The position numbers and the translations under genes are program-made. Of a stretch of 36,303 nucleotides of DNA, positions 13,088 through 36,303 are shown one piece after another. A model generated the notes under the pieces. The model was not told the origin of the DNA. It did not search any database and saw only the letters and a program-made list of their open reading frames with translations. Each line of letters starts with the position of its first letter. Positions within the stretch are counted from its first letter, which is position 1. This stretch comes from Bifidobacterium breve (GTDB taxonomy: Bacteria > Actinomycetota > Actinomycetes > S36-B12), in the NCBI GenBank assembly GCA_945877545.1, contig CAMCSO010000008.1:1-36303 (forward strand). The letters run 5' to 3'.

Positions 13088-13122
13088 CATTCATCTAGCC
13101 CAGAATCCGGGTGAGATGAATG
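13088..13122 (+). repeat. Hairpin motif copy A
   Basis: CATTCATCT-ag-CCC-AGAATCC-GGG-tg-AGATGAATG: perfect 9-bp outer stem plus CCC/GGG around a 7-nt loop. Confidence 0.85.
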
Positions 13123-34899: not shown

Positions 34900-35757
34900 T
34901 CAGGTGAAAAGTTCTTGGAGCGTTCGACGCATGACCTGGCCGTCGACGTCGACGCCAGTCCAGAGTTTGATCGCCACCCGGCCCTGATTCACGAGCATGC
35001 CCATGCCGTCGATCGTGGTGCAACCACGGTCGGCTGCATCTGCGAGGAGCCGTGTCCTAGGGGGATTGGGTATGACATCAGCGACCACCATGGAGGGCCG
35101 CAGCGAGTTCGGGTCGATGTTCAAGCGCGAATCGACGTCGGGGAAGAGCCCCACAGAGGTCGCGTTTACGACGATTTCGGTTGTGTCGGGAATCTCGAAG
35201 TTGTGATCCCAGTGGACGAATGTGGCAGTGGCCGGAGTATCAACGTTGATGCGATCAACGAGGTCCTGACCGCGTGACGCAGTGGTGTTGACGATCGTGA
35301 TGTGTGAGGCGCCTGCGAGCGCGGATTCGACGGCGATTGCTCGTGCGGCCCCGCCGGCGCCGAAGATGACGAGATCCTTTCCGGCCGGATCAACGACCGT
35401 ACGGAGTGACTCGACGAAACCCTTGCCATCGGTGTTCTCGCCGATGAGTCGTCCGCCCTTGATGACGACGCAATTCACCGCACCGATGATTGACGCGGAG
35501 GGAGCGAGCTCATCAAGGAATTCAATCACCTTCACCTTGTGCGGGAGGGAGCAGTTGAACCCGATGAAGCCCATCGCCAGTGCACCCCGCACGGCGCCGC
35601 CGAGTGCTTCGGGGGCCACCTCGCAATTGATGTAGCGCGCATTCAGCCCGTGGTGGGCGAATACAGCGTCCATGACAGCAACGGTTGGGTTTTCGGCTGC
35701 AGGCATTGCGAACGACGCCGTCAAACCGCTCATAAAATCGTGTGCCAAAGCAACCAA
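34900..35757 (-). CDS. AroE-like shikimate dehydrogenase-family protein, non-canonical N-terminus
   Basis: [99 protein letters not shown]. Start could be ATG 35733 or TTG 35748. Confidence 0.85.
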
Positions 35758-35795
35758 CCCCTCTCAGACAACAAGCCCCAAAAACCCACCCCCCA

Positions 35796-36081
35796 GTCAC
35801 TTCATCCAGAATCCGGTTGAAGTGGCCAAAGATCTGGTCAGATGACCATGTTTTTGGTCATTCTGTCCTGCCCCGTAGTTGCAGTGGCGCTCACCAGTTC
35901 ACGTGCTCAACTGTCGAGCCAGTCCAACTGTCACGGACAGTTGCAGCCCACGTCAGACAACAACTAGGCGCCGCCATCTTCTTTCACGTTACCTGAGCAC
36001 CAGCAACTGGACGAGATAACCAAAAACATGTCTATTTGACCAAAAAACTGGTCAGTTGCAACGGATTCTGGATGAAACGAC
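35796..36081. repeat. ~286-bp imperfect palindromic element with long inverted arms (MITE/REP-like)
   Basis: GTCACTTCATCCAGAATCC at the left end versus GTCGTTTCATCCAGAATCC on the minus strand at the right end; ATGTTTTTGG 35848-35857 versus CCAAAAACAT 36020-36029 in the same register; near the centre CAACTGTC-ACG-GACAGTTG at 35925-35943. Confidence 0.75.
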
Positions 36082-36084
36082 GGG

Positions 36085-36303
36085 CTAGGGGGTGAGGGCT
36101 TGATCGCCCTCGTCGATCGTGAGGGCCCCCGTCATGATCGCGACCACGTCATTCATCGTGTGGGTTTGCGGAGTCACGACGGCTGCCCGACGGCCGAGAC
36201 GCTGCACATGGATCCGATTGGCCACCTCGAACACCTGTGGCATGTTGTGCGAGATGAGGATGACCGGCATGCCCCTGTCGCGAAGGTCCTTGATCAACTG
36301 CAA
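36085..36303 (-). CDS. Sugar-type ABC transporter ATP-binding protein, C-terminal fragment (truncated by window edge)
   Basis: QLIKDLRDRGMPVILISHNMPQVFEVANRIHVQRLGRRAAVVTPQTHTMNDVVAIMTGA, as in RbsA/FrcA-type ATPases (switch His in ISHN). Confidence 0.85.
   Translation of the reverse strand: MQLIKDLRDRGMPVILISHNMPQVFEVANRIHVQRLGRRAAVVTPQTHTMNDVVAIMTGALTIDEGDQALTP

Follow-up and report, generated by a model that had tools for sequence, protein, structure and literature searches.

The window, the whole stretch of 36,303 nt that was analysed, is contig C8 of a draft genome (G000) made up of 307 contigs totalling 2.97 Mb. Close to its right end, an intergenic palindrome separates the 5' end of an AroE-like gene from the 3' end of an ABC ATPase-like gene. 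The features of this junction are the following.

34900-35757, minus strand: shikimate dehydrogenase (AroE)-like gene (Pfam), 5' end facing the element
35784-35795, no strand: C-rich tract on the outer side of the left core; such tracts recur beside units (alignment of unit ends)
35796-35868, plus strand: left unit, family 1, 73 bp (R1 model hit, E 1.2e-18; rows in alignments A1 and A2)
35796-35826, plus strand: 31-bp core of the left unit (12-bp arm, 7-nt centre AGAATCC, 12-bp inverted arm)
35836-35847, plus strand: middle half-palindrome GGTCAGATGACC (+41), with a T-rich stretch after it
35856-35868, plus strand: third arm, core arm 1 repeated at +61
35869-36008, no strand: 140-bp inter-unit spacer with the CAACTGTC-ACG-GACAGTTG hairpin
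36009-36081, minus strand: right unit, family 1, 73 bp, inverted (R1 model hit, E 9.5e-17)
36051-36081, minus strand: 31-bp core of the right unit
36082-36097, no strand: G-rich tract outside the right core, overlapping the stop of the ABC-like gene (TAG, 36085-36087, minus strand)
36085-36303, minus strand: ABC ATPase-like gene, 3' end, cut by the contig end (sequence reading)

The AroE name is supported by Pfam (PF08501 and PF18317). That of the ABC ATPase rests on sequence reading, since the 72-codon fragment up to the contig end has no Pfam hit.

An earlier, sequence-only reading had described the interval as a palindrome with long inverted arms and a central perfect hairpin. The palindrome was confirmed: it consists of two inverted copies of a 73-bp unit around a spacer, and the edges proposed for it match the outer ends of the two model hits exactly. 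When folded, a 321-nt stretch (35780-36100) reached a minimum free energy of -136.7 kcal/mol, against -93.7 ± 5.6 kcal/mol for dinucleotide shuffles (z -7.6), with none of 100 shuffles as low. The 73-bp arms are identical at 53 of 73 positions without gaps, and their local alignment scores 55, the best of 1000 shuffles reaching 28; arm identity is therefore far above that of shuffled sequence. The central hairpin exists in the window but is missing from the spacers at the aroE junctions of sister species, where the 140-bp spacer as a whole has no counterpart; hence, it is no conserved part of the element.

Copies of the unit within and outside the genus

Searching G000 showed that each arm has further copies, spread over about a dozen contigs; therefore, the palindrome is built of repeats. 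Second copies, which the sequence-only reading had proposed to look for, are present both in G000 and in sister species. The genus set comprised G000 and the genomes of four sister species (G001 to G004), all of them incomplete drafts (61-92% complete). Alignments were made of 18 ends at first, then of 95 units from three species. The family 1 core is a 31-bp imperfect palindrome with the consensus GTCATTTCATCC-AGAATCC-GGCTGAAATGAC, while the consensus of the full unit reads GTCATTTCATCC-AGAATCC-GGCTCAAATGACC, a variable stretch, TTGGTCATTTGACC, a second variable stretch and TGGTCATTTCATCC. An imperfect 12-bp stem around a 7-nt centre thus occupies positions 1-31, a half-palindrome positions 41-52, and a repeat of arm 1 positions 61-73. 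In most copies a C-rich tract lies 5' of the unit.

In the 95-unit alignment, 83.6% of stem cells are paired. Covariation in the stem amounts to 0.130, as compared to 0.113 ± 0.005 in shuffles (none of 500 reach it) and to 0.071 at most when the stem is slid; of the five covariation measures, two do not exceed shuffles, and columns 8 and 10 of the stem are frequently unpaired. A consensus-like core folds at -18.4 kcal/mol.

A sequence-only model identified 27 family 1 units in G000 (E ≤ 2e-8), many in G001 to G003 and weaker ones in G004; 34 further genomes from the family and order contained none. The 31-bp core, with its centre left free, was then sought in 168 genomes of the order. It gave 41, 28, 56, 48 and 70 strand-wise hits in G000 to G004, respectively, so that all four sister species carry it; reversed-pattern controls stayed near zero. 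Only one of the 163 other genomes had a hit, a single one that is probably due to chance. The repeat family is confined to one genus of uncultured Actinomycetota. Neither phages and plasmids nor the structured-RNA models of Rfam 15 (up to E = 1) gave a match. The public records carrying the core are metagenome-assembled genomes; three such records in which the repeats are present (CAMAWO01, CAMDKQ01 and CALPZT02; loci L111-L134) are titled "Bifidobacterium breve", an organism name that looks wrong.

A second family and the spacing of the arms

Weak hits at positions 13090 and 13150 of the window revealed a second palindromic family, also centred on AGAATCC.

13090-13120, plus strand: family 2 core, TTCATCTAGCCC-AGAATCC-GGGTGAGATGAA
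13150-13180, plus strand: another family 2 core, at a distance of exactly 60 bp from the first

The core consensus of this family is TTCATCTGGCCC-AGAATCC-GGGCCAGATGAA. It was hit 30, 8, 40, 44 and 5 times in G000, G001, G002, G003 and G004, the 30 strand-wise hits in G000 corresponding to about 20 cores, and was absent from the 163 other genomes of the order. In 35 of 39 loci a second arm, ATTCGTTCATCTnGCCC, lies at an offset of exactly 60 bp from the start of the core, and the DNA between is unrelated. Since only the core served to choose these loci, their selection did not favour the offset. The equivalent offset in family 1 is 61 in 78 of 88 scored cores, a count biased upwards because the model that picked the units itself contains the arms. 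Constant length combined with free sequence between the arms is the strongest sign of a complex that would read the arms in phase, and it is from this phasing that we infer a protein. A model of three RNA hairpins was dropped because pairing in the middle stem of family 2 is no better than with shuffled partners (792 of 2000 shuffles reach it).

Gene context, inheritance and turnover

Units are arranged as inverted pairs (189-415 bp long; 267-355 bp in G000), singly, on either side of genes and facing each other, or back to back with one common core. At two G004 loci (L281 and L283), 33-bp tandem arrays of 3-4 cores occupy places where sister species carry solo or paired units. The gaps holding family 1 units comprise 31 convergent, 36 co-directional and 6 divergent ones, and those holding family 2 comprise 11, 12 and 5, as against 9, 29 and 23 among the other gaps of the same loci; the median distance from stop codon to outermost core is 35.5 bp in family 1 and 15 bp in family 2. 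These counts came from a crude codon-usage gene caller with orthologues pooled across several species, and all such figures are only descriptive since orthologues are counted more than once. Units lie mostly downstream of genes, some being upstream, as at aroE. Stop codons facing a unit are TAA in 67 of 142 cases versus 14 of 112 in other genes, and these TAA stops often take the form CTAACCCC and lead on into the C-rich tract.

Three stretches lie between distant facing ends: an AbiEi-like gene (1.2 kb), purE-purK-gtrA (2.47 kb) and the gene of a secreted-looking protein (1.5 kb). Such an arrangement might denote a mobile cassette. This was rejected: the three bracketed stretches are collinear across species through both ends, and the order CoA-binding gene-purE-purK-next gene is identical in outgroup genera without units. 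The outgroup picture for gtrA is mixed, with no hit in three genomes (G006, G013 and G016), a contig ending within the gene in G009, and extra DNA in G008. Collinearity and the ancestral purE-purK order thus indicate that units joined existing junctions singly. The AbiEi-like protein was likewise discarded as a transposase, since homologues were found in 10 of 16 further genomes of the family, none of which has the repeats. It is AbiEi_4-like with a Pfam score below cut-off (L023:823-1812), and is orthologous in four species. The secreted-looking protein (L094:1073-2356; also L095 and L096) has a glycine-rich C-terminus and no Pfam hit.

Each G000 unit locus compared has a unit-bearing orthologue in G003, and all but two (L030 and L207) have one in G002; the comparison covers loci fetched for carrying units, and about a dozen G002 or G003 sites with no G000 counterpart lie outside it. 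Across 39 orthologous pairs, identity is 0.94 in the arms, 0.94 in the centre and 0.85 in the in-unit spacers, dropping to 0.74 in the inner 60 bp of flank and standing at 0.85 in the outer, mostly coding flank. Paralogues within G000 are 0.80 identical in the arms and 0.43 in the spacers, arm identity being somewhat inflated because units were selected by a model that includes the arms. Spacers follow descent and arms remain near one consensus. Constraint on the arms would fit this pattern better than conversion of whole units, as conversion would homogenise the spacers too.

The centres are AGAATCC-like in G000, G002 and G003, AGCATCC or AGTATCC in G001, and ACTATCC in G004, and these species-specific forms are also seen at loci orthologous to those of G000. 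At one junction, G004 has a core with the centre typical of that species next to an older relic, which is placed as in the other species. The potassium-channel/RarA-like junction holds two cores in G004 and none in G000, G002 and G003. Sites are therefore not all fixed, although gene content differs there too and this is no clean empty site. Past spread of the repeats and some later turnover are evident. At the aroE-ABC junction the element is present in G004 and absent in G001, the latter being too diverged for an exact empty site; none of the orthologous junctions checked displayed a target-site duplication or an exact empty site.

Gene order at this junction differs in G003. There, the aroE-side unit is followed by tRNA-Ser, which adjoins another element in G000 and G002 (L232, G003:C131), and a second contig joins a gene X to the ABC gene (L158, G003:C243). 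These joins would be explained by an inversion whose breakpoints lie in two elements, or else by a metagenome assembly join.

Relation to known repeats and competing explanations

REPs are described (PMC3733652) as palindromes of 20-40 bp, mostly tagged by GTAG or CGTC, that are situated in uni-directional or convergent gaps and often form dimers in opposite orientation; RAYT transposases are linked with the GTAG types, and a dedicated transposase is apparently lacking for the CGTC types. Classical REPs usually exceed 100 copies per genome (PMC2817692). The present repeats share much with these. Their 31-bp core falls within the size range, is an imperfect palindrome and has a common consensus; they are extragenic and multi-copy, mostly downstream of genes in convergent or uni-directional gaps (by crude gene calls, species pooled); they occur as single units, opposite-orientation and back-to-back pairs and, in G004, tandem arrays; and two types coexist in one genome. 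They differ in numbering only tens of copies (27 family 1 units and about 20 family 2 cores in G000), in carrying an extra arm at a fixed +60/+61 and C/G-rich outer tracts, and in lacking an unpaired GTAG or CGTC tag: the consensus starts with GTCATTT inside the stem and the preceding base varies. The Y1/RAYT transposase family (PF01797) was detected in five control genomes and was absent from the incomplete drafts G000 to G004, so a RAYT mobiliser was set aside. Untagged REP-like families in M. tuberculosis, D. radiodurans, Bordetella and Brucella (cited in PMC3733652) are palindromic without a terminal tag as well, a likeness of description; the excerpted account of them does not mention a phased extra arm, which the present repeats have. 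REPINs (PMC3116915) and MITEs also consist of palindromic repeats that are paired in inverted orientation and enclose a short spacer; here, by contrast, no transposase was found, G000 sites are common to sister species, and the pair is not obligatory, as many units are solo. The repeats should be called REP-like and not members of a tagged REP super-family, given that palindrome, location and dimers agree with the definition, and tag, copy number and RAYT (in these incomplete genomes) do not.

Among the three possibilities raised from the sequence alone, a paired REP/BIME thus fits best: the repeats are short, palindromic, extragenic and multi-copy, single or in inverted pairs, and enriched between convergent genes. 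To call the element a structured 3' UTR of the ABC operon would be too restrictive because more than 20 unrelated junctions carry the unit, though its transcript may form a hairpin with a role of its own. The third, a MITE-like element, gained no support from target-site duplications, exact empty sites or a transposase, and G000 sites are occupied at orthologous places. In a broader form, it would have a transposase acting on the ends spread the pair, or the single unit, as a non-autonomous MITE- or REPIN-like element. Dispersal within one genus does imply past spread, and G004, with its own-type core beside a relic, its two-core junction vacant in three sisters and its 33-bp arrays, speaks for such movement. 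We consider it unlikely all the same, given the recurrence of G000 sites in G002 and G003, the lack of a Y1-family transposase (the family searched for) in the five drafts, and the collinear genes between distant ends, with an ancestral purE-purK neighbourhood.

It is possible, if doubtful, that the units act primarily as bidirectional terminators or 3'-UTR hairpins, the transcribed core and a GGTCA-TGACC hairpin with a T-rich tail ending or protecting mRNAs. The frequency of convergent gaps, the short distances from stop codons and the stability of the folded core would all be accounted for, and the left unit does contain one terminator-like stem with a T-tail. That match is not above shuffles, however (1 versus 0.6 ± 1.0), and the T-run is weak in the consensus; moreover, a terminator needs neither an exact 60/61-bp offset nor a species-wide centre, and some units, such as that at aroE, are upstream of genes. 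We regard as very improbable that the repeat is a site for a tyrosine-type recombinase, with two 12-bp inverted arms, a 7-bp centre and accessory arm sites. The arm-centre-arm geometry, the centre common to loci within one species and the two G003 joins at these elements are as such a site would have them, but no recombinase is linked to the units, gene order near them is otherwise stable, and the G003 join, which falls in the spacer, is possibly an assembly error. Rather tentative, too, is the proposal that the units are chromosome-wide binding sites of a putative DNA-binding protein of the genus, which would organise the nucleoid or insulate transcription units at gene 3' ends. The arms are about two helical turns apart (positions about 1, 20, 41 and 61), and the central heptamer has changed together across many loci in different species, as expected if site and protein co-evolve.

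Our preferred reading, to which we assign a probability of roughly 60%, is that the element is a BIME-like inverted pair from a genus-restricted REP-like family whose phased arms are kept for a putative sequence-specific factor. The repeats are dispersed, restricted to the genus and recurrent at orthologous places, mostly gene 3' ends, with arms and spacing kept amid changing DNA; it is this conservation and phasing that would argue for a factor and a function. A protein might bind the arms in phase, or bind the extruded hairpin, and thereby cause the arms to be kept. By analogy with REP/BIME elements, the local effect could consist in ending or blocking transcription of the neighbouring gene, protecting the 3' end of its mRNA, or constraining supercoils.

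In REP-like repeats generally, it is difficult to distinguish mobility from RNA hairpin effects and from protein binding. The two families described here occur in a single genus in which no RAYT was detected; they are found again at orthologous places and keep their arms and a near-invariant offset amid changing DNA, and they therefore make it testable whether REP-like repeats are kept for protein binding as opposed to ongoing transposition. In conclusion, these repeats resemble known REP/BIME elements but are devoid of the usual transposase and end tag. Their fixed arm spacing points to a putative DNA-binding partner, and the species-specific centres permit a direct test of co-evolution.
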